Assembly (NCBI RefSeq): GCF_000001735.4
Contig: NC_003075.7
Location: 11,905,001 to 11,969,000, forward strand
DNA: 64,000 nt
Direction of reading: 5' to 3'
Source: Arabidopsis thaliana
Taxonomy: Eukaryota; Streptophyta; Magnoliopsida; Brassicales; Brassicaceae
Part shown: positions 13,236 through 33,717 of the stretch, piece after piece
Layout of the letters: the number at the start of each line of letters is the position of its first letter
How positions within the stretch are numbered: the first letter of the stretch is position 1
Position numbers and translations under genes: made by a program
The notes under the pieces: generated by a model
The model's database searches: none
What the model was told of the DNA's origin: nothing
Seen by the model: the letters and a program-made list of their open reading frames with translations, nothing else

Positions 13236-15671
13236 ATGGATTCAACGAAGCTTAGTGAGCTAAAGGTCTTCATCGATCAATGCAAGTCTGACCCTTCCCT
13301 TCTCACTACTCCTTCACTCTCCTTCTTCCGTGACTATCTCGAGAGGTACTTTCGATCTAATCTCTATGCTTAGTTTGTGTCTGTGGTGGTTAAGAGTTAG
13401 TAAAGTATTGATCTTTGAGTCTATGTTTGTGTAAAGTGTATTGCCCTGATCTCTAGCGAAAATCTGTTGTGGAATTGATAAACCCTTTACTCTCTTGTGG
13501 ATGAAAGTTCCTGTCTTTGGTTTTGGGTTCTTAGAATTTGTGTCTGTGATGTTTTAGTTTAGTAAAGTATTGATCTTTGAGTCTCTGTTTGTGTAAAGTG
13601 TATTGCTCTGATCTCTAGCTGAAATCTATTATGGAATTGATAAACCCTTGTACCTTTGATCTCTGTGAGGCTATTCTGTGGTTTCTGATGAGTTTTGGGA
13701 TTTTTTATGATTTCAGTCTTGGTGCTAAGATACCTACTGGTGTCCATGAAGAAGACAAAGACACTAAGCCGGTATATATTTTTTTGTTTGGTTCAATTGA
13801 ATTCGTTTGTGTGTTTTGCAGAAGAGTTTGTTTTTGATTTGATTGTTTCTGTTTAACAGAGGAGTTTCGTAGTGGAAGAGAGTGATGATGATATGGATGA
13901 AACTGAAGAAGTAAAACCGAAAGTGGAGGAAGAAGAAGAAGAGGATGAGATTGTTGAATCTGATGTAGAGCTTGAAGGAGACACTGTTGAGCCTGATAAT
14001 GATCCTCCTCAGAAGGTACCATGATGACTAAGCAAAACCTTAGCTTTTGATTTTACTAATTTCTGTCTGATTGTGTGTTTCTGACTCTCTTGGTTTCGAT
14101 ACAGATGGGGGATTCATCAGTGGAGGTGACTGATGAGAATCGTGAAGCTGCTCAAGAAGCTAAGGGCAAAGCCATGGAGGCCCTTTCTGAAGGAAACTTT
14201 GATGAAGCAATTGAGCATTTAACTCGGGCAATAACGTTGAACCCGACTTCAGCTATTATGTATGGAAACAGAGGTCAGTACAAGTTGATTTTGTTTATTT
14301 TAACTTCCATCAGATGGGTTTCTTTGCCTAAGTGTCTACATTTGTGTTTCAGCTAGTGTCTACATTAAGTTGAAGAAGCCAAACGCTGCTATTCGAGATG
14401 CAAACGCAGCATTGGAGGTACAGTGGTCTACAATTTTCCTTGAGAATTTTGTTTTATGGTGATGATATTCAATCGTTTTGTGTTTATGATCACAGATTAA
14501 CCCTGATTCTGCCAAGGGATACAAGTCACGAGGTATGGCTCGTGCCATGCTTGGAGAATGGGCAGAGGCTGCAAAAGACCTTCACCTTGCATCTACGATA
14601 GACTATGATGAGGAAATTAGTGCTGTTCTCAAAAAGGTATGCATGTGTTTGTCTATATGTTTAATCACTTTTGATTCATTAACAATGCATAAGCGTGATT
14701 CTTATACAAACATTTTTTTGAAATTTGTAGGTTGAACCTAATGCACATAAGCTTGAGGAGCACCGTAGAAAGTATGACAGATTACGTAAGGAAAGAGAGG
14801 ACAAAAAGGCTGAACGGGATAGATTACGTCGCCGTGCTGAAGCACAGGTAGCTTCATAGACCATGAAATCAATCAGAATAATATTTTGATAACATTAGTC
14901 AGTTTTGTATTGACCTTATCACTTAGCTATAGACATGGGTTTTGTTTATATAATGTTGGGCTTATCCATATCTCTTTTTCTGTAGGCTGCCTATGATAAA
15001 GCTAAGAAAGAAGAACAGTCATCATCTAGCAGACCATCAGGAGGCGGTTTCCCAGGAGGTATGCCCGGTGGTTTCCCAGGAGGTATGCCCGGTGGATTCC
15101 CAGGAGGAATGGGAGGCATGCCCGGCGGATTCCCGGGAGGAATGGGTGGTATGGGCGGTATGCCCGGTGGATTCCCAGGAGGAATGGGCGGTGGTATGCC
15201 TGCAGGAATGGGCGGTGGTATGCCCGGAATGGGCGGTGGTATGCCTGCTGGAATGGGTGGTGGCGGTATGCCAGGTGCAGGCGGTGGTATGCCTGGTGGT
15301 GGCGGTATGCCTGGTGGTATGGACTTCAGCAAAATATTGAATGTAAGAGCGACTATTTGTGAATTACCAATATCCAGAGTTTTTGAAGTTAAATTGACAT
15401 TGTGAGATTGGTTTGATATTTGTGAGCAGGATCCTGAGCTAATGACGGCATTTAGCGACCCTGAAGTCATGGCTGCTCTTCAAGATGGTATGATGACTCA
15501 GTTTAAAGTTGCAGTTTATTAATGTTTTTTGAATATTTTTCGAGTCTTGAATGTTGTTTGAATGCTATAACAGTGATGAAGAACCCTGCGAATCTAGCGA
15601 AGCATCAGGCGAATCCGAAGGTGGCTCCCGTGATTGCAAAGATGATGGGCAAATTTGCAGGACCTCAGTAA
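13236..15671 (+). CDS. HIP1: Hsp70-interacting protein HIP1 (TPR co-chaperone)
   Basis: Ten exons: 13236-13345, 13717-13771, 13860-14015, 14105-14273, 14353-14417, 14496-14636, 14731-14847, 14986-15342, 15430-15487 and 15574-15671; 441 residues, closing in frame. Order: N-terminal Hip dimerisation segment (residues 1-40); acidic linker (about 58-107); TPR repeats (about 120-225, with [15 protein letters not shown] and the following helices); a charged coiled region rich in Arg, Glu and Lys (228-272); a Gly-Gly-Met-Pro repeat region (about 285-385); and a C-terminal STI1/DP domain ending MGKFAGPQ. This is the full architecture of animal Hip, which binds the Hsp70 ATPase domain and stabilises its ADP state in the cytosol. 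I place it at At4g22670. Confidence 0.95.
13377..13652 (+). repeat. Tandem duplication inside HIP1 intron 1
   Basis: Copies at about 13377-13490 and 13540-13652 share long stretches such as AGTAAAGTATTGATCTTTGA and GTGTAAAGTGTATTG, ending near GGAATTGATAAACCC. They differ by scattered substitutions. The period is about 163 bases and the whole repeat lies within the first intron (13346-13716). Confidence 0.85.
15040..15325 (+). repeat. GGMP-coding minisatellite in HIP1 exon 8
   Basis: Imperfect tandem units of 12-24 bases around GGAGG(T)ATGCC(CGG) encode Gly-Gly-Met-Pro, Gly-Gly-Phe-Pro and Gly-Gly-Gly-Met motifs. Copy number is a likely source of length variation between accessions. Confidence 0.8.
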
Positions 15672-19080: not shown

Positions 19081-22000
19081 TAAATACTATATAGAAATGA
19101 TATGTGTGATTGTATATTATGTTATATGGGGATGTGAAATAGAGAGCGAAATGGAAGAGATATGGAAGAATAAAGTTATCGAGGATGGAAAATCTCAACA
19201 GCTTGCAAGTTATGTCAAAAGCTTACCAAAGCTCACCCACCTATATATAACCTTCTCACACCTTTCCCCCACAATTGGTTTCAGGAAAAAATAACTTTAC
19301 ATCTTAATATTTTCGAAATTGTTTTAGTAACTTTTATTAAAAATTCTAGTGGCATTATGGCAAAGCATTTTAACTAGTAACGGTTATATATATATACATG
19401 GTTCGATTGGTAACACAAAAAATTATAAAATCTTTTGTCGATATGAAAAAAGTAATTGATAACATATAAATAATTAAAAACGGTATAAATAACGAACATA
19501 TAAAATGGTATAAAAAGCTGATAATAGTTTTTTTTGTCGCTTTTAGTATTCTTTTATGTGATTGGTTAGAATGAAAAACAGTACGGACTACTAATCACCC
19601 TCATAATGTTGTCACTTAGAGATTTCTTGGTATATAAATACAATTAATCACCCTAATAGTGACTTAATATATGTATAATACCCGTCTTCACTATTTTATC
19701 ATTAAAGAATGTCTAATCTAAATAAGAATTATGCATTACTCGTTCATACAAAAGTACATATAGATCAGAATTTTTTTAAGGTACGTATGTATATACAGGT
19801 GTCATGATGGGGAAATTACAACAGTTTCAAAGAAGATCTTCTGTATCTGACTTTATACATAATACGTTCGTTTATATTTTTATATTGAATGGTTCATTTT
19901 AATTAGGAGTTAGTCAGCTAAAGAATTACGAATTCTGATAAAATAAGATTATTCTAATAAATAATGATTCAGGTTTTTTTTGGTCAGAAATGATTAAGGT
20001 TAAGAAATATAATTTGTCTTACTTTGTCAAATCTGTTGCTAGTAGGATCATAGAAAGGAGTATTGGAGATGTCGCATTTGGTTGGTGAAAATGACTTTGG
20101 AACTAATGTGAAAGGATAGGATGCGTGCGAATGTACGCAATCACACGTGCGATTCATACCTTTTTTACTCAAATACTTGCTCAAGTTTCAAATAAATATA
20201 TACTTTGTATTTATTTATTAAAAAATGTATTAATTTCAACATTAAGTACTAAGGATCTTGATAACTAAAACTAGTGTAGTTTTAAGTTGTAGGCACTTAT
20301 TCTGTCACCAAAACTGTATATAAATCACCGACTCTAATAGTTGATGACACACACAAAAAAAATGAATTTTTCATTGTTGTCGCTATCAGCTGTGAAATAA
20401 ACACGAATAAAAATATGATCCAGTCTTTACAAAACCGATTTTACATAAAATATTCAGAATTTGCCCATAATAATACTCTTTTCAGAATCTCAAATAATTG
20501 GCTTGGTCCGGTTCAACTATGGCAAAATCCGATAAGTTTTGAGAATTGAGATCTTTAGTCCATTGCGATAAACCATTTTTTTTGGCAACCCTAACAAACC
20601 TATTAAGTATATTATATACGAGTCTCTAATTTTGGTAAGATTTGTTTTTTACATAACATAGAAGAAACTTAAAAGCTTCAATAATGAATTGCCGCACAAA
20701 ATACTTTGTCGCCGATACGAAAAATAAGTATAGACGAATATCCATTTGACACATGGTGTACACGTATAGATCACTGTATCAATATATGTTTCTAATCTTT
20801 GCGACTTGTGGGTGACTTGCAATTTTGGCTTCATGGTTTTGCTACAAATTGATCTATCTTTCAATATTAAATTAATATTCTTCGTCGTATCATAGTGTCT
20901 ACTTAATTATTGTCAGAATGTGGCTCGCTCGCTTCTTTGTTTAATCGGATCGGAAATGTTTTAAAAATCTTCCATGAAAAATTAAAGATTGTATGCTAAG
21001 ATATGATAGTAATCCTGGTAAATGTTATTGGAAGTGTTGATATATCCTAAATGATGAAGTAGGCGGATATATAAGCGAGAAAGTCTTTGGCGTACCGAAA
21101 TAAGGGATGTAACCTGATTCTAATTTCTAAATGAGTACACATTTATAGGTTTTGGGAGTTTATATGTTGCATTTATAACTTAATTTGGGGCACATAAGAG
21201 CAATGCCATTTTTTATTATAAAAGAAGCTAGGTTTGTTGACTATAATTTTCGAATGGATTCTGATAATCCAATTCGATAATTATTTACACTATTATTTCT
21301 TTTAAAACCTATGTTCATATGGTATTAAGTCAGAAGTGTTTTGTTTTTCTGCTCAATGATGAATTTCGCTTCAACGGGTAATTAATGCTTTAGCATTCTT
21401 TTTCTTGATTCCGATTTCTTTGACTTGTGTTTAGTACTACTACTACTCTACTGCTCAAACTAATATAAACAAATATTTTTTTTTTCTAGTTACGATTTGT
21501 CCACACCAAATATAGATGTTCCCACTTCTTGTTCTTGCCCACGAAATTTTTCCAATGAGTCACTGCTATCTTCTTTTGCTGGCTGAATCATTATTCACTA
21601 AGTAATATATATTAAAAATTCTTAGAATGTGGTCGTTTAATTTACTATATATGTGTGAAAATATGTGAATCTTTGTTTCATGGAATCTATTTTTGAAGTT
21701 ACAATTTCTTCGAACAACTTGTGAGTTGTGTCTCTTGTCTTCTTTGATAATCATGGCCCCCAGACAAAATGTTATATACACAATTGTCGGAAGTGTCTGT
21801 TTCCGTGTGATTAAGGCAGAAAGAAAGAGCAAATTAAATAGGAGAAAAATATTTTCACTATTTGATCAAGAATATATGTCTATGTAAAGTACATATCAGT
21901 GTTTAATGTAAAACCATTTTTTTTTGAATAAGTTTTTTTCTCAAGAATTTTTATGTTATATGTAAAAAGGGACTATGGGAGTTGGAGATCCCTCATTAGC

Positions 22001-24251
22001 ACAAGTAAAAAGTCTCGAAAATGCGAATATATTGTGTGTATATATGATTAAGTCTCTAAAACTCAATAAACACAATTATAAAAGTGACATTTCAACACCC
22101 CACCACTTTCTTGTATTTCTCTACAACTCTCATTTGCTAATAATTAATTAATTAAGATTCAAGACTCTTAATCATCGCTTGTTCCCTTAATCAAAAGTTT
22201 AAAATCGACTTCTTGCTTTAATCCCATTTTCAAGTCACCACTTACGTAACTTAGGAGTAATGCCATCGTCATTATATTATGCATGCATATATATAGTAAA
22301 TTCATGTGGGTGTGTAACTGTGTATGTATGGAACTGTAAATATAAAGATGTGGCACTATTGTTAGTCAAGTCACTTTTGTCCCCTTTATTTATTTATTTT
22401 TATTATTTTTTGTCCCCTTTATTGTAGACTATATATTTATTTATTCAATTTCTAAGTAACTAAGACCATAATATATTCAGAGTATTATTCTGAAAAAATG
22501 TTATACTGTTTGTCTGTTTGATATGATTATCAATGGTTCATATTCACATAAAAACTATATTAAATTTTACCTATGTTACATGGTACTGATAGATATCTAA
22601 TATATGGTACTATTGACTTATGTTGAACAAATAATATCCTTTCTTACTGCATAGGTTACATGAGAGATGTTGCATGGTCAAACTATTAGTCTAGTTTTGT
22701 GTAAATAAAACACCGGACCGGTTATAAAGAAAATCAAGACATAAAGAGGTTTGTTATAAGAGTATTTTATTTTTTTCTTAATTAATTGGCTTTCTAAATG
22801 TTGAAACAATTAGATTTCCTATATTTTAGCAAGTACCTAAGTTTTAGAGAATTGAATCAAAACACATTGATGAGAAAGTTTTGTTGGTTATATTTTTACT
22901 GAATGAATAATATCAAACCAAACTATTCTATTACTTATACCATTTGAAAAAAAAATTGTCCAAAAAAAAAGAATACCATTTGAATCAAAATGATTTAAAT
23001 ATCTAACCGGGACTACAAAAGAAAATGTTATCCAATGGGTTGGGTCTTGTTGTGATCAAATATGTGAGGGCCAAATTGTTATGAAACAATATTTAGGCCC
23101 AGAATAGTCTCACTAAGTGCAATCAAGCCCATGACCGTCATACACTAAGTTAATAATAGATATAAGTTATAACAAAAGAAATAATTGAAATAGGAGGAGA
23201 AGTAATGAATGATCAGAAATGTGTCCGTGAAAGTTTCATGTTCTTGGTCTCACTTTCATAATCATGTTTATGGTCGCTCACACGTAATTGTCGCAAGAGT
23301 TAACTACACTACGTTCAGAAGTGCATTTTCGTAATTATGTAGAGATTTCACAATTTGGCTTAAACTAACCAAAATGCCCTGGCATGATGAGAGCTCGTAG
23401 ATAGGCTTTTTAGCATTTGTGTTAACTTTATGCATTCAATCTTAAACATTCATCTATCTAACCATACTATTTTAAGTAAGACACAACCAAACCGATCTCT
23501 AACAAAATTGAATTAAATTTTATAATGACACAAATTTTACGAAAACTCGAATCTAACCAAAACCAAATCCGTATCATACTAGAAACTTAATTGAAATGTC
23601 GACCCCTAATTCATATTACATCATCTGCTAAAGTTAGTTGCATAAGAGTACCCACATCGGTTATTTATTTGTCGGTGTCTGTAAATATAAGAATAATCAA
23701 TAAAAAATGGTAGGTGTTTTTAGTTTTAAATTTGTGGTTTTAAGAAAACATTTGAAACATAAAAAAAAAGAGATGATTTTAATTTCATTACTAATTTATG
23801 CTAAAGACATTTTTCAAAAATTGTGTAACGAGGATGGTCTAATGGTGTTTTGTAGAGCTTGTAATTTAAGATAGTTTTTACGTTGGAATGAAATTGAGCT
23901 AGATCCGATTGTCTAGCCGCCAGTCTTCACAGGTAACAACAAGTCAACAACCGACACATAAATAAAATAAAAAATTTGGACAAAATAGTTGAAAATATTG
24001 TAAAGTGTTGTTGTTATTTTCTTTATTTTAAAAATGTTTAAGGTAAACGTATAAAATCAGCGCGCATGCAATAAAATAAGTCAAATTCAACCTTTTACTA
24101 CTACTACTATATTGAAGTATTTTTTTTGTTTTTTTGTAGTAAATTACTATTGAACAATGATTAATGGATAATAAGGTTTTGAATATCGACAAGTGGAGTG
24201 ATGCGATAGTACACTGTTTTCGCGGCTGCGTATAGATAATTGATTGAATTA

Positions 24252-24294
24252 GACTTCAACACTGGTGGCGACTTGGTCAAGATTGGCGTTGTAT
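24252..24294 (+). repeat. CYP706A upstream duplicated block, copy 1
   Basis: ACTTCAACACTGGTGGCG followed by ACTTGGTCAA-ATTGGCGTTGTAT matches 29386-29428 with very few changes. It lies 694 bases before the conserved CYP706A1 ATG, against 652 for copy 2. It marks that the duplicated unit includes upstream sequence. Confidence 0.8.
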
Positions 24295-24374
24295 CATCAT
24301 AATTTTTTGTCCAATAATGTTATTACATATTTATGATAGTATATAGTACTGTACAAAAAAGTGATTATCTATTA

Positions 24375-24568
24375 CTCTTTCTGTTTTAAAATTAGATTTT
24401 TTAGAAAAAAAATTATTTTTAAAATTGAGTTTTTAAGGTTTTTTATGCAATATTTATTAATTATTATTCATATATTATAAACTTTTTTTTGAATATTTTT
24501 AGTTTAGAATTATAGATTTTTTTTTTAAAGGTCCGTATTTTTTTACAAAATCTATTATTTAGAAAGAG
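24375..24568. mobile_element. Possible small AT-rich MITE (Stowaway-like ends)
   Basis: The left end CTCTTTCTGTTTTAAAATTAG resembles the reverse complement of the right end, which also begins CTCTTTCT and soon reaches an AGATTTT match. The inner sequence is T-rich and partly self-complementary. Target duplication is not clear, so the family is tentative. Confidence 0.35.
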
Positions 24569-24841
24569 AGAATCTTAAATAAATTATTCTTATAACGCAA
24601 TACAATCATTTTTCTTTACCTTATGAACTTTATTTTTTTTTGTGATTAGAAGATAAAGTAAATACTATTTTTTCTGCATGTCTTTTGTATAAGTTTGTAA
24701 CTACTACCACTTTCAACGCCGTCTCAAATCTTTCACTCTTTTTTTTTGGATTGCAATATGAAGTACCTAAGAAATTTCATATAAGGTGATCTAAAATATA
24801 ACAAAAATAAAATAGTGTAATGATTCTCTCTGAGCCTACAA

Positions 24842-24848
24842 TATAAAT
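24842..24848 (+). promoter_or_regulatory. TATA box of CYP706A1 (overlaps an upstream ATG)
   Basis: CCTACAATATAAATG is conserved at the same place before CYP706A2 (about 29932-29946), followed in both by a CT/CA-rich leader. TATAAAT overlaps the ATG at 24847 in copy 1. Its position about 100 bases before the shared start codon fits a core promoter. Confidence 0.7.
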
Positions 24849-24945
24849 GTCCACACTCCCTTTGTTCTCTCTTCACCACCACACAACACAAAACCTCCAA
24901 ACCAATAATCAGAACACAGTGAGATATTTCTCTCTGAAGCCAAAG

Positions 24946-26520
24946 ATGGAAACGGCGTCTTCTAATTTCTCTCTCTCGCAGATCCTCAATATTGAGGAAC
25001 CCTACAGCTCCGTAATGCTCGGTGTCGCCGCTCTCTTGGCCGTTGTTTGCTATTTCTGGATACAGGGGAAGTCCAAATCCAAGAACGGACCACCGTTGCC
25101 TCCGGGACCTTGGCCACTTCCGATCGTCGGCAACCTCCCGTTCCTAAACTCTGACGTCCTCCACACGCAATTCCAAGCCCTAACCCTAAAACATGGCCCT
25201 CTCATGAAGATCCACCTCGGTTCCAAACTTGCGATCGTCGTCTCTTCCCCTGACATGGCTCGCGAGGTTCTCAAAACCCACGACATCACTTTCGCCAACC
25301 ACGATCTCCCTGAAGTCGGAAAGATCAACACTTACGGTGGTGAAGACATCCTCTGGTCTCCTTACGGTACCCATTGGAGGAGACTTCGTAAGCTCTGCGT
25401 CATGAAGATGTTCACTACCCCAACTCTCGAAGCTTCCTACTCCACTCGCCGGGAAGAAACCCGACAAACCATTGTCCACATGTCGGAAATGGCTCGTGAA
25501 GGATCACCAGTCAACCTCGGAGAGCAAATATTTCTTTCCATTTTCAACGTCGTGACAAGAATGATGTGGGGCGCCACTGTTGAAGGAGACGAGAGAACGA
25601 GCTTAGGAAACGAGCTCAAAACCCTAATATCTGATATCTCCGACATAGAAGGGATTCAAAACTACTCAGATTTCTTTCCGTTGTTCTCAAGATTCGATTT
25701 CCAAGGATTGGTTAAGCAGATGAAAGGCCATGTGAAGAAGCTTGATCTCTTGTTCGATAGAGTTATGGAGAGTCACGTCAAAATGGTGGGAAAGAAGAGC
25801 GAAGAAGAAGAAGATTTCTTGCAATACTTACTTAGAGTTAAAGATGATGATGAGAAAGCTCCTCTGTCCATGACTCATGTCAAGTCTCTCCTCATGGATA
25901 TGGTTCTTGGTGGTGTCGACACATCGGTTAACGCATCCGAATTCGCCATGGCAGAGATTGTGAGCAGACCGGAAGTGTTAAACAAGATCCGACTAGAACT
26001 TGACCAAGTTGTTGGCAAAGACAACATCGTTGAGGAATCACATTTACCTAAGCTTCCTTACCTACAAGCGGTTATGAAAGAGACTCTTAGGCTTCACCCT
26101 ACGCTTCCTCTTCTTGTTCCTCACAGAAACAGCGAAACCTCGGTGGTTGCGGGATACACTGTGCCTAAAGACTCCAAGATTTTCATCAACGTTTGGGCGA
26201 TTCATAGAGATCCTAAGAATTGGGATGAACCAAACGAGTTCAAACCTGAGAGGTTTTTGGAGAATTCGCTTGATTTCAATGGAGGTGATTTTAAGTACTT
26301 GCCTTTTGGGTCAGGAAGGAGGATTTGTGCGGCGATTAACATGGCTGAGAGACTTGTTCTGTTCAACATTGCTTCACTTCTTCACTCTTTTGATTGGAAA
26401 GCACCTCAAGGACAGAAGTTTGAGGTTGAAGAGAAGTTTGGTCTTGTTCTTAAGTTGAAGTCTCCACTTGTGGCTATTCCTGTTCCAAGGTTGTCCGATC
26501 CAAAACTCTATACAGCTTAA
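24946..26520 (+). CDS. CYP706A1: Cytochrome P450 CYP706A1
   Basis: Intronless. I choose the ATG at 24946 (524 residues), aligned with CYP706A2. An in-frame ATG at 24847 would add 33 residues (557 in all), but it sits in the likely TATA box and the extension is broken by a stop in the paralogue. Parts in order: N-terminal membrane anchor (about 20-40), Pro-rich hinge PPLPPGPWPLPIVGN, I-helix GGVDTS (normally A/G-G-x-D-T-T/S), K-helix KETLR, PERF, and heme-binding PFGSGRRICA with Cys 461. The family is ER-bound monooxygenases using a P450 reductase; CYP706A members include terpene oxidases, but this substrate is not known to me. Nearly identical to CYP706A2 from 25132 on. I place it at At4g22690. 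Confidence 0.94.
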   Translation: METASSNFSLSQILNIEEPYSSVMLGVAALLAVVCYFWIQGKSKSKNGPPLPPGPWPLPIVGNLPFLNSDVLHTQFQALTLKHGPLMKIHLGSKLAIVVSSPDMAREVLKTHDITFANHDLPEVGKINTYGGEDILWSPYGTHWRRLRKLCVMKMFTTPTLEASYSTRREETRQTIVHMSEMAREGSPVNLGEQIFLSIFNVVTRMMWGATVEGDERTSLGNELKTLISDISDIEGIQNYSDFFPLFSRFDFQGLVKQMKGHVKKLDLLFDRVMESHVKMVGKKSEEEEDFLQYLLRVKDDDEKAPLSMTHVKSLLMDMVLGGVDTSVNASEFAMAEIVSRPEVLNKIRLELDQVVGKDNIVEESHLPKLPYLQAVMKETLRLHPTLPLLVPHRNSETSVVAGYTVPKDSKIFINVWAIHRDPKNWDEPNEFKPERFLENSLDFNGGDFKYLPFGSGRRICAAINMAERLVLFNIASLLHSFDWKAPQGQKFEVEEKFGLVLKLKSPLVAIPVPRLSDPKLYTA

Positions 26521-28300
26521 GTAAGTAAGAAGGAAATTTGGTTTGAGCTTATGAGAGGAAGTTGAATTGAGTTTTCTTGTTTAAAGTTTATTTTTCTTTA
26601 TTCGTGTTTGGAGTTTGATGCTTTGTAAAAAAAGATGTGTCAAGTTAAATTTAATTTTCTTATATATAATAAAATAAAGTTTTAGTCACAATATATAATA
26701 ACGCATTATTTTGGTGTCCAAAGTCGATACCATAAGCTATAAAATTCTTGGCAACAAAATTACACATACAGTGTATGGGCTTAAGAACCACAGAAGTTTT
26801 GGATATGTAAACATTAACGATCAACTGGTACTCAAAACTTCAGAATTTGACATATCTAATGCATGGTAATTGGAAAAAAAAAAATACCGTAAAAGACGCT
26901 ATTATACATTACAAAAAATATAAATACTGTGTACACTTAAACAGTTATTTACTTTCATCTATCTGTAAATAAATAAGTCAAATTTTTGATATTTAGGGGG
27001 TGTAATTGGTTCCTAATTTATAAGGAATTTTGATGACTTCAATCAAATACTAGAAAGTAAAAAAATGAAAGATTTTAAACGATTGTTAGAGACTTTTTTA
27101 TAATCTTGTTGATTAGTTTTTCATAATTTTGTAAAGTTTTTCAAACAATCTCTCTATTTTGATAATACTTTTCAATGATTTTTCATGACTTCATTTTAAG
27201 AAGAAAAATGTAGAAAGTCATGAACCAATAACATAATAATTTAAATTATTAACAATCAAAGATTCTTTTGTTTTAATTGAATAACACAAAACTTTTAATG
27301 ACTTTATAAGTGTATAAATCTAATAACCCAAAATTTATGAAGATTTTAAATTATTTTTTACAAATCTTAAATGAATAACACAAAATTTTAACATACTTTT
27401 AAAAAGTCTTGATTAAATAACAACAAATTTTACATAACAGTTTAAATCACTTAAATTCTTTTGAAATCATAAACGAATAACACCCCTTTATTAGACATTA
27501 GTCATGATAATTTGGGAAAATAATAATTATAGTAAATAATGTTATTATCTTTCCTAAACAAGTATTGCGCAGTCAAACAATAACTCTTCATCATAAATAA
27601 ATAAGTCAAATTTTCGATATTTATTGAACATTGCTATCTTACCTAAAATTATTGATATGGCAATTTAAATATGTTTTGAGACATGCCTATAAAACTATGA
27701 CTCATTTTGTTATTCTATGCATCATTTATATTTACTACATTTTCTTACATTGGAGCAAGGTATTGCATGATCTCACCATCTTGATCTAACGTTTAAAATG
27801 AAGTTTTTTTTATTTGTCATTAACTTATAATAGTTTTTCATATATACCACTCATGTTTTATTACATCCATTTTATACACTTTTCATTGCTACATAAAAAA
27901 CAAAAAATGATTTTATAAATATTCGACTATGAGATCTTTCGTGAGAATTTGTTCTCTTATGTTACATTGATATGATATTGTTATGTTTGTACGATTTCTA
28001 TAAGAACTTCTAATCGCTTAAGTTAGGAAGATTTATTGAATATTTAAATTATATATATATCTATGTAGTTTTACGTAGATTTTTTACTCATCACAAGCAA
28101 TGGTGAAAATATAAATTTTAGTGGTATTATTTATGATATATAATTTAAATATGTAGAAATTTTTATATATCTTGAAGATATTTTTCTTAATTTTGTTAAT
28201 ATAAATCAAATATGCATATATTTAAAAGTGTATTGATAATTTTTTTTTCTCATACAATTTTTTTATTTAGGGGTTAAGAGAGAAAATAAAACAAAGAAGA
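26521..28300. other. Intergenic between CYP706A1 and LBD32
   Basis: The first 240 bases match the 3' flank of CYP706A2 with indels (for example GTCGATACCATAAGCTATAAAA against GTCGATGCCAAAGCTATAAAA). A Harbinger-like MITE follows at 26996-27487. The remainder is AT-rich with no gene seen. Confidence 0.6.
26996..27487. mobile_element. Harbinger-like MITE
   Basis: 492 bp. The left terminus GGGGGTGTAATTGGTT is an inverted match of the right terminus, which ends AACGAATAACACCCCT. TTA is present on both sides (26993-26995 and 27488-27490), the 3-bp target duplication of the PIF/Harbinger superfamily. The inside repeats a degenerate AATAACACAAAATTTT motif five or so times in one orientation. There is no coding capacity, so it would depend on a transposase elsewhere. 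Confidence 0.75.
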
Positions 28301-28879
28301 ATGGCTTCCAACCGTTGTGCTGTCTGCAAAATTTTGAATGAAACTTGTGCTCCAATGTGCATTTATGCACCACATTTTCCATCAAACGATGCAAGTTTCA
28401 AAGTTATTATTCAGATTTTTGGAGCCGTGAATGTTTGCAATATCCTTGATAATCTTGAATTTCCAGAACAACGAGAGATTGCTGCCAACTGTTTACGTTA
28501 TGCTGCTGAGGCTCGTATACGTAATCCTATTTCTGGTTGTCATGACATGATTCTACAATACAAGAATATTCTCAATAATGTTGAACAAGATATTGAATCC
28601 GCGGTGAATGAGCTTGGAACCTATGTGGGACACGATCAAGTACCAAAATTTTATGATCTTCCAATGCCAGATGATTTCCTCATGACACCAGTCTCTTTAG
28701 ATTCTTTTATTGCAAAAATTAAGAGTTTAAACGAAGTTCAAAAGAATCAACTTATGCAACTCCCAACTGCTGCTGATAATGCACCAATGATAATGAATAG
28801 CATATTTGGGAAGATGGAAGATAAAAACCTGAAAGATGGGCATAGAGCTGATGGTGCATCAACATCTGCTGGTAAGTGA
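28301..28879 (+). CDS. LBD32: LOB-domain protein LBD32
   Basis: 192 residues as a single exon. The LOB domain occupies about residues 5-104: zinc-finger-like C-x2-C-x6-C-x3-C (Cys 6, 9, 16, 20), a divergent GAS block with FPSNDASFKVIIQIFGAVNV, and a weak Leu-zipper-like segment. Compared with typical class I members several conserved residues are changed, so it is a divergent member. LBD proteins are plant-specific DNA-binding factors; the role of this one is not clear. The TGA stop lies inside a strong splice donor (CTG/GTAAGT), so a spliced form with another C-terminus is possible. It lies between the two CYP706A copies. I place it at At4g22700. Confidence 0.87.
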   Translation: MASNRCAVCKILNETCAPMCIYAPHFPSNDASFKVIIQIFGAVNVCNILDNLEFPEQREIAANCLRYAAEARIRNPISGCHDMILQYKNILNNVEQDIESAVNELGTYVGHDQVPKFYDLPMPDDFLMTPVSLDSFIAKIKSLNEVQKNQLMQLPTAADNAPMIMNSIFGKMEDKNLKDGHRADGASTSAGK

Positions 28880-30037
28880 TATTGAAGAGATACTTCCATT
28901 TTCTGAAAATCAAAACCAAAAATAATTTTAATTATGTCTTTTCCGTGAATTTCTTTTAAACTCGAGTCTCCATAATAATTCTGTGTTTCTCTTCTCTGTT
29001 TTTCCTTTTTATAATTCTACAGTTTGTAATGTCTTAAGTTTAATATATCACAAAGTTTTTAAGAAAAAAAAAACATAATTTGACCAGTTTATAAAGATTT
29101 ATTAACAGCATTTCCATATTTAATTTCCATAGTTTTTTGCAAATAGTAATCTATATTATAGGATTTGAAGATGTTTGTATATTCTTGATTGGTAACTCCG
29201 AAATAATTCTAAAGTTTGTAACACTTAAAAACATCATGTTTTTCTACTGTTTAAAAATTGGATATGAGAAGAAATACAATTCTCCGACAGTCCGACGAGG
29301 AGTGCTCTGTCGTCCATACACAAAAAGCTTTTGGCTCATTTTTTATTTTTATTTTTTCTTTTCTCTTTAGACAATATTTGAATGGGACTTCAACACTGGG
29401 GGCGACTTGGTCAATATTGGCGTTGTATTTCCTATCAAATTATATATGTTATTATCATTCGTTTTCTCCAATAATTCTATCAGAGATTATCATATAAATT
29501 ATACTATTACTTATTAGTACAATGAAAATTAAGAGTATTTATTATATTCAACAACTCCTTCTTTACGAATTACGACCCAGTAGAATTTGTCAATAATTAT
29601 ATTTTTTATATATATATTTCACTTATGAACTTTGAGAGTTATCGTCATTCAAAGTTATAATTTCATTTGGTTTTAGTTTCATATCTCTTTCATGTTAACT
29701 TCTTTTGTCTGCACTAAAACATATATATATTTTTTTTATTGTCCGCGTGGTCTTTGATATATATAGTAATCATTTTCAAAGCCGTCAAATTTTTCACTTT
29801 TGATTTTGAATATAGAGGAACCTGTTGACCCAAAAAAACAGATTATGAAGGAACTTAGGAAATTTCATACAAGTTGATCTTAAAAATTAAGCAAGAAAAA
29901 AGAATAAATTAATGCAGTCATTCCTTAAGCCTACAATATAAATGTTCACACTCCCTTGTTCTATCTCCAACACAACACAACACAACACAAAAAATCCAAC
30001 CCAAGAACCACAGTGAGATCTTTCTCAGAAGACAAAA
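28880..30037. other. Intergenic upstream of CYP706A2
   Basis: Contains the LBD32 3' region, the duplicated block at 29386-29428, and the CYP706A2 core promoter with TATAAAT at about 29937-29943, about 95 bases before the start codon. No further gene is seen. Confidence 0.6.
29386..29428 (+). repeat. CYP706A upstream duplicated block, copy 2
   Basis: Matches 24252-24294 in the same orientation (ACTTCAACACTGGGGGCG, then ACTTGGTCAATATTGGCG). It marks the 5' reach of the duplicated unit that carries CYP706A2. Confidence 0.8.
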
Positions 30038-31618
30038 ATGGGAACAGCGTCGTCTAAGTCTAACATCAACCTCTCGCAGGTCCTCAACACTGAGGAGCCG
30101 TACAGCTCCGTGATGCTGGCCGTCGCTGCTCTCTTGGCCGTTGTATGCTACTTATGGATTCAGGGGAAGTCCAAGTCCAAAAAGGAACCTCCACTGCCTC
30201 CGGGACCTTGGCCACTTCCTATCGTCGGAAACCTCCCGTTCCTAAACTCTGACGTCCTCCACACGCAATTCCAAGCCCTAACCCTAAAATATGGCCCTCT
30301 CATGAAGATCCACCTCGGTTCCAAACTTGCGATCGTCGTCTCTTCCCCTGACATGGCTCGCGAGGTTCTCAAAACCCACGACATCACTTTCGCCAACCAC
30401 GATCTCCCTGAAGTCGGAAAGATCAACACTTACGGTGGTGAAGACATCCTCTGGTCTCCTTACGGTACCCATTGGAGGAGACTTCGTAAGCTCTGCGTCA
30501 TGAAGATGTTCACTACCCCAAGTCTCGAAGCTTCCTACTCCACTCGCCGGGAAGAAACCCGACAAACCATTGTCCACATGTCGGAAATGGCTCGTGAAGG
30601 ATCACCAGTCAACCTCGGAGAGCAAATATTTCTTTCCATTTTCAACGTCGTGACAAGAATGATGTGGGGCGCCACTGTTGAAGGAGACGAGAGAACGAGC
30701 TTAGGAAACGAGCTCAAAACCCTAATATCTGATATCTCCGACATAGAAGGGATTCAAAACTACTCAGATTTCTTTCCGTTGTTCTCAAGATTCGATTTCC
30801 AAGGATTGGTTAAGCAGATGAAAGGCCATGTGAAGAAGCTTGATCTCTTGTTCGATAGAGTTATGGAGAGTCACGTCAAAATGGTGGGAAAGAAGAGCGA
30901 AGAAGAAGAAGATTTCTTGCAATACTTACTTAGAGTTAAAGATGATGATGAGAAAGCTCCTCTGTCCATGACTCATGTCAAGTCTCTCCTCATGGATATG
31001 GTTCTTGGTGGTGTCGACACATCGGTTAACGCATCCGAATTCGCCATGGCAGAGATTGTGAGCAGACCGGAAGTGTTAAACAAGATCCGACTAGAACTTG
31101 ACCAAGTTGTTGGCAAAGACAACATCGTTGAGGAATCACATTTACCTAAGCTTCCTTACCTACAAGCGGTTATGAAAGAGACTCTTAGGCTTCACCCTAC
31201 GCTTCCTCTTCTTGTTCCTCACAGAAACAGCGAAACCTCGGTGGTTGCGGGATACACTGTGCCTAAAGACTCCAAGATTTTCATCAACGTTTGGGCGATT
31301 CATAGAGATCCTAAGAATTGGGATGAACCAAACGAGTTCAAACCTGAGAGGTTTTTGGAGAATTCGCTTGATTTCAATGGAGGTGATTTTAAGTATTTGC
31401 CTTTTGGGTCAGGAAGGAGGATTTGTGCGGCGATAAACATGGCTGAGAGACTTGTTCTGTTCAACATTGCTTCACTTCTTCACTCTTTTGATTGGAAAGC
31501 TCCTCAAGGACAGAAGTTTGAGGTTGAAGAGAAGTTTGGTCTTGTTCTTAAGTTGAAGTCTCCACTTGTGGCTATTCCTGTTCCAAGGTTGTCCGATCCA
31601 AAACTCTACACAGCTTAA
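30038..31618 (+). CDS. CYP706A2: Cytochrome P450 CYP706A2
   Basis: Intronless, 526 residues. The N-terminal 60 residues differ clearly from CYP706A1 (MGTASSKSNINLSQVL against METASSNFSLSQIL), but from the PPGPWPLPIVGN hinge onward the two proteins differ at only two residues that I can see (Tyr/His and Ser/Thr). Motifs are the same: GGVDTS in the I helix, KETLR, PERF, and heme-binding PFGSGRRICA with Cys 463. It is a tandem paralogue 5.1 kb downstream with LBD32 between. The near identity suggests that substrate range is shared and that differences lie in the membrane anchor and promoter. The upstream ATG at the TATA box is closed by a TGA, so the start here is unambiguous. I place it at At4g22710. 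Confidence 0.95.
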   Translation: MGTASSKSNINLSQVLNTEEPYSSVMLAVAALLAVVCYLWIQGKSKSKKEPPLPPGPWPLPIVGNLPFLNSDVLHTQFQALTLKYGPLMKIHLGSKLAIVVSSPDMAREVLKTHDITFANHDLPEVGKINTYGGEDILWSPYGTHWRRLRKLCVMKMFTTPSLEASYSTRREETRQTIVHMSEMAREGSPVNLGEQIFLSIFNVVTRMMWGATVEGDERTSLGNELKTLISDISDIEGIQNYSDFFPLFSRFDFQGLVKQMKGHVKKLDLLFDRVMESHVKMVGKKSEEEEDFLQYLLRVKDDDEKAPLSMTHVKSLLMDMVLGGVDTSVNASEFAMAEIVSRPEVLNKIRLELDQVVGKDNIVEESHLPKLPYLQAVMKETLRLHPTLPLLVPHRNSETSVVAGYTVPKDSKIFINVWAIHRDPKNWDEPNEFKPERFLENSLDFNGGDFKYLPFGSGRRICAAINMAERLVLFNIASLLHSFDWKAPQGQKFEVEEKFGLVLKLKSPLVAIPVPRLSDPKLYTA

Positions 31619-32466
31619 GTAAGAAGGATGTTGAATTGAGTTTTCTTGTTTAAAGTTTACTTTTCTTTATCTGTGTCTGGAGTTTTGATGCTTTGTATAA
31701 AAGATGTGTCAAGTTACATTTTTGATAACATTTAATATAACAAAGTTTTACTTACAATAATAACGCCTAATAGTCGATGCCAAAGCTATAAAACTATATT
31801 GTAGTTATATTTTTGGCAAGTCGATTAAAATTCTTGGGTCAACAAATTACAAATTAGTATGAAGGTTACAAATTAAAATTGTAATTATTTAAATTAATTA
31901 ATGTATAATTATATCACAAATACTTCACGTCACACTAAATGAGTCCTTCTTAGCGGCAAAATATGCGTTATTGGGCTAGGCCCATTTATAAACGACGCCG
32001 TTTACACAGTCTAGAAACTCAACATCGTCGTTTCTCTCCCGGCGACTTTATCGCCGTCTTTTTCTTCTTTAAACTCTCTGGCTAATTTCGTTTTGCTTTG
32101 AGCTTGTGAGCTACTTCTGATTCCGGCCATCACGCAGCTTCAGGTTAGTTTTTGATTTAAATCAAACAACAGTACATGGGTTCAGTGTGTTGTGTCTCGA
32201 ATGGAATTGGTTTCTGTGTTTAGATTAGGGTTTAGGGCTCTTTCATCTAAGGAAACGAAACCTAGGTTATACGAATCTCTTTGTTGGGTCTCTCTCAATA
32301 CCAATACCAATCAACGAAAGGATTAATTTTGTTCATCATCTTCAACGTCTAAGGCTATAATTTGTGTTAGTTCAAATTGATTCAGAATAAAGTTTGGATT
32401 TTTACTTCACCTAGTCCTGAATTTGTTGTTCTCTGTGTAGAAAGTTTCTGTTTTTAAATCAAAGAA
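31619..32466. other. Intergenic and 5' leader of KAE1
   Basis: The left part is the CYP706A2 3' flank. The right part is the KAE1 promoter and leader, which probably contains a 5' UTR intron from about 32144 (CAG/GTTAGT) to 32440 (CTGTGTAG). Confidence 0.55.
31971..31984 (+). promoter_or_regulatory. Palindromic Site II pair in the KAE1 promoter
   Basis: TTGGGCTAGGCCCA gives two TGGGCY-type elements back to back, about 490 bases before the ATG and shortly before the probable leader. Such pairs are typical of TCP-controlled housekeeping and translation genes in Arabidopsis. A second short palindrome, AAACGACGCCGTTT, follows at 31991. Confidence 0.6.
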
Positions 32467-33717
32467 ATGAAGAAGAAGATGATAGCCATTGGTTTCGAAG
32501 GATCAGCTAACAAGATTGGAGTTGGAATTGTGACTTTAGACGGTACTATCTTAGCAAATCCTCGGCATACGTATATAACACCACCTGGTCATGGTTTTCT
32601 TCCTAGAGAGACTGCACATCACCATCTTGACCATGTTCTTCCTTTAGTCAAATCAGCTTTAGAGACTTCTCAAGTTACTCCTGAAGAAATCGACTGTATT
32701 TGTTATACGAAAGGTCCCGGGATGGGAGCGCCGTTGCAGGTTTCAGCCATTGTTGTTAGAGTATTGTCACAGCTTTGGAAAAAGCCAATTGTTGCTGTGA
32801 ATCATTGTGTGGCTCACATTGAGATGGGGAGAGTAGTTACTGGAGCTGATGATCCTGTTGTGTTGTATGTGAGTGGTGGTAACACTCAGGTGATTGCTTA
32901 TAGTGAAGGTAGGTACCGGATTTTTGGTGAGACTATTGATATTGCTGTTGGTAATTGTTTGGATCGGTTTGCTAGAGTCTTGAAGCTTTCTAATGATCCA
33001 AGCCCTGGTTATAACATTGAACAGGTAGATTTCATTTGAAAGTAAAGTAAATTTGAATTCTTGAAAGATTCAAGAACAATGTTAACACGGTTTTTGGTGT
33101 TGTTACTAGCTTGCTAAGAAAGGAGAAAACTTTATTGATCTTCCGTATGCTGTTAAAGGTATGGATGTATCGTTCAGCGGAATCTTGAGTTATATCGAAA
33201 CTACTGCAGAGGAGAAGCTCAAGAATAACGAGTGTACACCAGCAGACTTGTGTTATTCCCTTCAAGTAAGGCTATCACTTGGTTCTTAACTGATGAATTT
33301 TGTCACATGAATGCAAATTTTGGACTGTTTAAGAGTAATATCATGAATTCATGTTTGTTGATCTTGCAGGAGACGGTGTTTGCGATGTTGGTTGAGATCA
33401 CAGAAAGAGCGATGGCGCATTGTGACAAGAAAGACGTTTTGATAGTTGGCGGTGTTGGGTGTAACGAGCGTTTGCAGGAAATGATGAGGACTATGTGCTC
33501 AGAACGTGATGGTAAGCTGTTTGCAACAGATGACCGTTACTGCATCGATAATGGAGCTATGATCGCTTACACAGGTCTACTCGCGTTTGTTAATGGTATT
33601 GAAACACCGATCGAAGACTCTACCTTTACACAACGATTTCGCACAGACGAGGTTCATGCGGTGTGGCGAGAGAAAGAAGCTGTACTACTTGGGGATAAGA
33701 AAGTTGCAGCGAATTGA
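32467..33717 (+). CDS. KAE1: KEOPS/EKC subunit Kae1 (tRNA t6A37 threonylcarbamoyltransferase)
   Basis: Exons 32467-33024, 33110-33265 and 33370-33717, 353 residues. It belongs to the Kae1/TsaD (OSGEP, M22 'glycoprotease') family with the ASKHA actin-like fold. It starts [16 protein letters not shown], with the metal-binding pair in [10 protein letters not shown] (His 113 and His 117), YVSGGNTQ in the second phosphate region, and Asp 298 in IDNGAMIAY. Kae1 transfers threonylcarbamoyl from TC-AMP to A37 of ANN-reading tRNAs as the catalytic part of KEOPS. No organelle targeting peptide is seen, so this is the cytosolic form; the organellar form is GCP1. I place it at At4g22720. Confidence 0.95.

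Follow-up and report, generated by a model that had tools for sequence, protein, structure and literature searches.

The P450 gene pair in its genomic setting

The window, by which we mean the whole 64,000-nucleotide stretch of Arabidopsis thaliana DNA analysed here (C4:11905001-11969000), contains two P450 genes that we take, as did the original prediction, to be CYP706A1 (gene 1) and CYP706A2 (gene 2). A LOB-domain gene lies between them (Table 1) and, as judged by open frames and Pfam domains, all three genes are intact and show no sign of a crossover product. In a search of the genome (119.66 Mb on seven contigs), the best matches of gene 1 were gene 1 itself and gene 2, and the next by score were loci on chromosome 5 (17.998 Mb) and chromosome 4 (7.31 Mb), which are presumably CYP706A3-A7. 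Both the P450 domain (PF00067) and the closeness to the other CYP706A genes place the window pair in the CYP706A subfamily. The 526-residue frame of gene 2 is its longest ATG-started frame; in gene 1, an in-frame ATG further upstream at 24847 (region 24847-24948) would give 557 rather than 524 residues, and the extension may be particular to gene 1. No RNA family matched positions 22000-33500 at gathering score. Elsewhere in the window, a direct-repeat array with a copy spacing of 9-42 bases occupies 15031-15239, and one of its frames, read by eye, is rich in glycine, methionine and proline. Two scans of viral and prokaryote contig collections turned up no relative; in one of them, 15 stretches fitted a peptide pattern and none encoded a relative.

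Table 1. Coordinates of the genes, tract segments and flanks of the window pair, and of the CYP706A5/A6 tract.
Feature	Position	Strand	Description
First P450 gene (presumed CYP706A1)	24946..26520	+	single open coding exon, 524 aa; Pfam p450 PF00067, E 5.1e-98
LOB-domain gene, between both P450 genes	28301..28879	+	open frame; Pfam LOB PF03195, E 1.2e-26
Second P450 gene (presumed CYP706A2)	30038..31618	+	single open coding exon, 526 aa; Pfam p450 PF00067, E 6.4e-99
51-bp block, gene 1	24244..24294	+	about 650-700 bp before ATG; 92% identity to 29378-29428
51-bp block, gene 2	29378..29428	+	about 610-660 bp before ATG; partner of 24244..24294
Diverged homologous 5' flank, gene 1	24757..24945	+	about 15% mismatch (aligned sites) plus indels; partner 29844-30037
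Unconverted 5' coding part, gene 1	24946..25131	+	N-terminal anchor and proline-rich hinge, read from sequence
Unconverted 5' coding part, gene 2	30038..30229	+	6-base insertion relative to gene 1
Tract core, gene 1	25132..26297	+	0 synonymous differences in 253 sites, 2 nonsynonymous
Tract core, gene 2	30230..31395	+	alignment, change-point scan
Site of absent phase-0 intron	25896..25897 (gene 1), 30994/30995 (gene 2)	+	protein-similarity models
3' part of tract, gene 1	26298..26520	+	4 synonymous differences in 52 sites, dS 0.081
3' part of tract, gene 2	31396..31618	+	scan within tract, dS
Diverged homologous 3' flank, gene 1	26521..26744	+	29-base indel; about 8-10% mismatch, increasing to 15-20%
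Diverged homologous 3' flank, gene 2	31619..31793	+	alignment, DNA search
CYP706A5/A6 tract (presumed names)	L034:4241-4508 and L034:8582-8849, i.e. C4:7310740-7311007 and C4:7315081-7315348		identical 268 bp, exon 2

The homogenised tract and its two edges

When positions 25132-26521 are set against 30230-31619 (offset 5098), the two genes differ at six of 1390 bases (0.43%), namely at 25192, 25424, 26298, 26337, 26403 and 26511. Only two of the six change a residue (His/Tyr at 25192 and Thr/Ser at 25424) and the other four are silent, so that the counts and coordinates of the original prediction, about six differences with two residue changes, were right. It had also read some 30 differing sites and an indel in the preceding coding bases, and the nucleotide alignment of the 186 bases at 24946-25131 indeed gives 30 substitutions (~16%) and one 6-base indel; a codon alignment, which places the indel differently, gives 21 synonymous and 10 nonsynonymous changes. 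By Nei-Gojobori count, dS is 0.717 in this 5' part (21/45.5 sites, which are all the synonymous sites that the segment carries) versus 0.0132 in the tract (4/305), and dN is 0.075 versus 0.0019. Gene 1 and gene 2 are identical over 873 consecutive bases (25425-26297). The pattern has the marks of interlocus gene conversion: an abrupt change in divergence with homologous sequence on both sides, and low divergence that extends to synonymous sites.

A single change point fitted to the synonymous differences is best placed between the codons of 25129 and 25132, where the log-likelihood rises by 37.4; none of 2000 randomisations reached this gain (largest 10.35). For the first base of the converted stretch, the 95% interval spans 25098-25152. 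The predicted abrupt switch at the proline-rich hinge is thereby upheld. Within the unconverted coding part, identity persists longest in the hinge codons directly before the edge (25 bases by count, 25097-25121), a natural spot for a tract to end.

The description of the tract as sharp holds for this 5' edge and fails for the 3' edge, which is graded, with heterogeneity that starts within the coding sequence near 26296. All four synonymous tract differences lie to the right of 26296, within the last 75 codons (4/52 sites), and there is none in the 253 sites to the left of it. In a change-point scan inside the tract, 49 of 20000 randomisations were at or above the observed value, and the largest gap between the six differences, 874 bases, has a p value of 0.019. 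In four control pairs from the same subfamily (A4/A5, A4/A6, A5/A6 and A3/A7), tail-codon dS is 0.338, 0.237, 0.163 and 0.642, respectively, in each case below core dS. The segment at 26298..26520 is probably an older or separate conversion, and the distribution of the differences, only six in number, is suggestive of two or more conversions that overlap, the older extending to the 3' end and the younger spanning 25132 to about 26297. The drop in similarity that had been predicted to follow the stop codon, with indels, is present as a 29-base indel, then 8-10% mismatch at aligned sites to 26620 and 15-20% to 26720. Beyond this, 26721-26790 can be aligned only with 42 gap columns, with 7% mismatch among the remaining 58 sites, and the local alignment ends at 26744/31793.

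A probable old duplication, a young tract and a missing intron

What might explain why two genes that differ so markedly in their first 186 coding bases are so nearly the same thereafter? The flanks bear directly on this question. Used as a DNA query against the genome, the 5' coding piece from gene 1 has gene 2 as its sole other match (82% identity), and so does the 3' flank of gene 1 (78% over 189 of 280 bases); because gene 2 is the sole other match, the flanks are true but diverged duplicates and not replaced sequence. The flank mismatch figures are somewhat optimistic, since gaps absorb mismatches, and the ~15% mismatch of the 5' noncoding flank is below what a dS of 0.72 would lead one to expect, barring constraint or optimistic gap placement. 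Further upstream, the 51-bp block sits in otherwise poorly alignable sequence, no third copy of it was found in the genome search, and it is perhaps a common regulatory element. The idea that a third P450 supplied the 5' end of one gene is disfavoured, since the gene 1 5' part matches only gene 2 in the DNA search with gene 1 as the query. In the codon comparison, dN between the two 5' parts is 0.075 versus 0.53 or more from either to A3-A7.

In the one genome examined, we therefore consider it very probable that an old tandem pair underwent a recent, presumably non-crossover, interlocus gene conversion, which copied ~1.2-1.4 kb of coding sequence from one gene to the other. The likeliest mechanism is that one of the genes suffered a double-strand break, which would have been repaired from the related sequence ~5.1 kb away. 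The start of the copied tract lies within the proline-rich hinge codons or immediately behind them, and the tract core would reach about 26297, the less similar 3' part deriving, on the statistics of the scan, from an earlier or separate event. As the conversion would have ended before the N-terminal anchor and the promoter, separate control regions and anchors were kept, and the outcome would be two genes with distinct promoters, N-terminal anchors and 3' ends that encode nearly the same catalytic domain. Comparison of the six differences with the five paralogues showed no direction of transfer, and third-position GC content gave no clear answer as to the donor copy. At a mutation rate of 7e-9 per site per year, the tract dS of 0.0132 would correspond, very roughly, to an age of one million years. 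Another rough yardstick comes from PMC3749932, according to which the coding sequences of A. thaliana differ by ~6% on average from those of A. lyrata or A. halleri; since the tract stands at 0.43% and the 5' coding part at ~16%, the duplication would be older, and the tract younger, than the split of A. thaliana from A. lyrata and A. halleri.

The tract core also contains the site of a missing intron. A phase-0 intron stands at one identical alignment column in all five of the other CYP706A models (72, 126, 362, 152 and 326 bp), and both window genes are precisely without it. An intron precisely absent within the tract, by comparison with the predicted models of its relatives, is the signature of cDNA-mediated conversion or intron loss, and at some stage a cDNA probably played a part, either after the duplication or, as a retrogene or an intron loss, before it. 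It is more economical to place the loss before the duplication, given the long branch that precedes it (dS to A3-A7 of at least 2.1 in the tract). Had the intron been lost after the duplication, conversion may have spread the loss to the second gene. In its specific form, in which one gene lost its intron through a cDNA after the duplication and conversion, from DNA or the same cDNA, passed the intronless body to the other, this sequence of events seems to us rather unlikely.

Another proposal is that the conversion itself was templated by cDNA: a spliced transcript of one gene would have been reverse transcribed, and this cDNA would have taken the place of most coding sequence in the other gene, or in both, with removal of the intron and homogenisation of the pair together. 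The precise absence from both genes of an intron present in five of five other CYP706A gene models, at a site in the tract core, speaks for it, as do the position of the 5' edge and of the 3' edge of the core, both inside the reading frame, and the failure of the tract to reach the 5' end, which a 5'-truncated cDNA would be expected to produce. However, as both loci are intronless, the donor must have lost its intron too, and loss before the duplication followed by ordinary conversion takes no more events. The coding region also has the strongest homology, hence edges within it are expected under DNA conversion, and the 3' flank is homogenised to a lesser degree. On balance, a cDNA template for the tract is improbable. 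It is very improbable that the whole unit was duplicated once and recently, and that the 5' end and flanks of one copy were later replaced or changed rapidly: the tract itself is young (dS 0.0132), but a DNA search with the 5' coding part of gene 1 brings up no other locus than gene 2, the divergence between these two parts is mainly synonymous (dS 0.717, dN 0.075) and resembles ordinary slow divergence rather than replacement, and old homology exists in both flanks. Flanks that are diverged yet homologous therefore do not fit a recent duplication with replaced ends. Uniform divergence, which would have spoken against conversion, was looked for and is absent (dS 0.717 versus 0.0132, with diverged flanks), and the uniformly low divergence over gene and flanks that a recent tandem duplication would leave was not found either. 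Because the flanks and 5' coding part are homologous but diverged, the preference of the original prediction for an old tandem duplication with recent homogenisation over one recent duplication stands.

Could constraint on the sequence, or an artefact, have produced the step in divergence? Purifying selection of extreme strength, acting on the tract's nucleotide sequence itself, would fit the conservation of the tract protein (dN 0.0019), but it is contradicted by the control pairs, taken from five other CYP706A gene models that were built by protein similarity without transcripts. The core codons that have no synonymous change in 253 sites in the window pair have a dS of 0.469 in A4/A5, 0.428 in A4/A6, 0.302 in A5/A6, where the value is lowered by a tract of that pair's own, and 0.995 in A3/A7. 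The step in dS thus does not come from constraint, since core dS in the four control pairs is 0.30-1.0. Their 5'-part dS values, in the same order, are 0.330, 0.414, 0.163 and 0.448, each below the pair's own core dS. From the window genes to A3-A7, dS over the tract is 2.1 or more and near saturation, and the controls refute such selection as far as one genome allows, which leaves it a negligible probability. An error of assembly or cloning, in which the body of one gene was copied into the locus of the other, would account for the high identity, which is all that recommends it in the one assembly examined; six scattered differences, two of them coding, and a 3' gradient in dS are unlike a copied contig, and we regard such an error as extremely unlikely.

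Comparison with other P450 pairs and known systems

Among the P450 pairs compared, the window pair stands out for the exceptional length and cleanness of its tract. The pairs set against it came from 20 further stretches around P450 genes, picked from the P450 matches in the genome and including the CYP706A loci, a survey that covers part of the genome's P450 clusters and same-strand pairs inside each stretch only. Two stretches (L033 and L042) held no pair, and some genes occur in several pairs; with the window, the survey yielded 52 distinct alignments, each 500 columns or longer. The window pair tops the 52 with a score of 196 for its best segment (1379 near-identical bp at 99.6%, the remainder at 74.3%), followed at 42.4 by L040 (C1:24124858-24125323 with C1:24128653-24129118; 466 bp at 97.9%, the rest at 91.2%), at 40.9 by CYP706A5/A6 (268 bp at 100%, the rest at 84.4%) and at 35.6 by L044 (C5:8669682-8670008 with C5:8674135-8674461; 327 bp at 98.5%, the rest at 83.4%). 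The L040 and L044 tandem-pair segments are possible conversions. Against 100 column shuffles, 12 of the 52 score above the shuffled maximum. Shuffling takes no account of protein constraint, however, and those of the 12 outside the top four stay under 14, so that they may be no more than conserved regions. In the pair that we take to be CYP98A8/CYP98A9 (L036), there is no long homogenised tract, the best segment being 23 bp.

The genes on L034 that we take to be CYP706A5 and CYP706A6 present a firm second, conversion-like case within the subfamily. Like the window pair, they share a stretch of zero dS in an otherwise diverged pair: 88 identical codons with 0/60.7 synonymous changes, against a dS of 0.335 elsewhere in the pair and of 0.327 over the same 88 codons between CYP706A4 and either A5 or A6. 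Unlike the window tract, theirs is much shorter (268 bp) and lies in exon 2 of genes predicted to keep the intron. Beside the CYP706A7 gene, L035:6951-7604 contains P450 fragments in three frames that are probably a CYP706A pseudogene.

The window pair is reminiscent of several systems already described. In the HMA4 cluster of Arabidopsis halleri, as presented in PMC3749932, ectopic conversion likewise homogenises the coding sequence of tandem paralogues while promoter histories remain separate, although that work drew on population samples and found recurrent exchange beside dosage selection, whereas CYP706A1/A2 is seen in one reference genome. The RPP8 family of A. thaliana also exhibits intergenic conversion between paralogues of the same species (PMC6771003); there, conversion shares polymorphism among immune-receptor paralogues and raises diversity, whereas it would have made the CYP706A1/A2 enzymes alike. 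CYP98A8/CYP98A9 form, like CYP706A1/A2, an intronless tandem P450 pair in the same genome, but according to PMC5059761 retroposition came first and tandem duplication followed; the term gene conversion is absent from the main text of that paper. Table 3 of PMC5604286 counts six tandem CYP706 genes in A. thaliana, and the main text of that paper likewise does not contain the term. Among titles and abstract openings in the open-licence literature, none was found that describes conversion between CYP706A1 and CYP706A2, which is weak evidence of absence.

The CYP706A1/A2 tract is a striking and very clear example of a well-known process, and provides a model-plant example of two genes with separate promoters, anchors and 3' ends and nearly one catalytic domain. 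Divergence measured over the whole gene would misdate the CYP706A1/A2 duplication, and short reads and array probes would be unable to separate the two genes over most of their length. The phenotype of a single CYP706A1 or CYP706A2 knockout may be masked by the near-identical enzyme. The precise absence of the intron within the tract means that the order of intron loss and conversion could be read from any close relative, and if the loss did follow the duplication in one gene and pass to the other by conversion, a single tract would both have homogenised two enzymes and taken an intron from a second locus.
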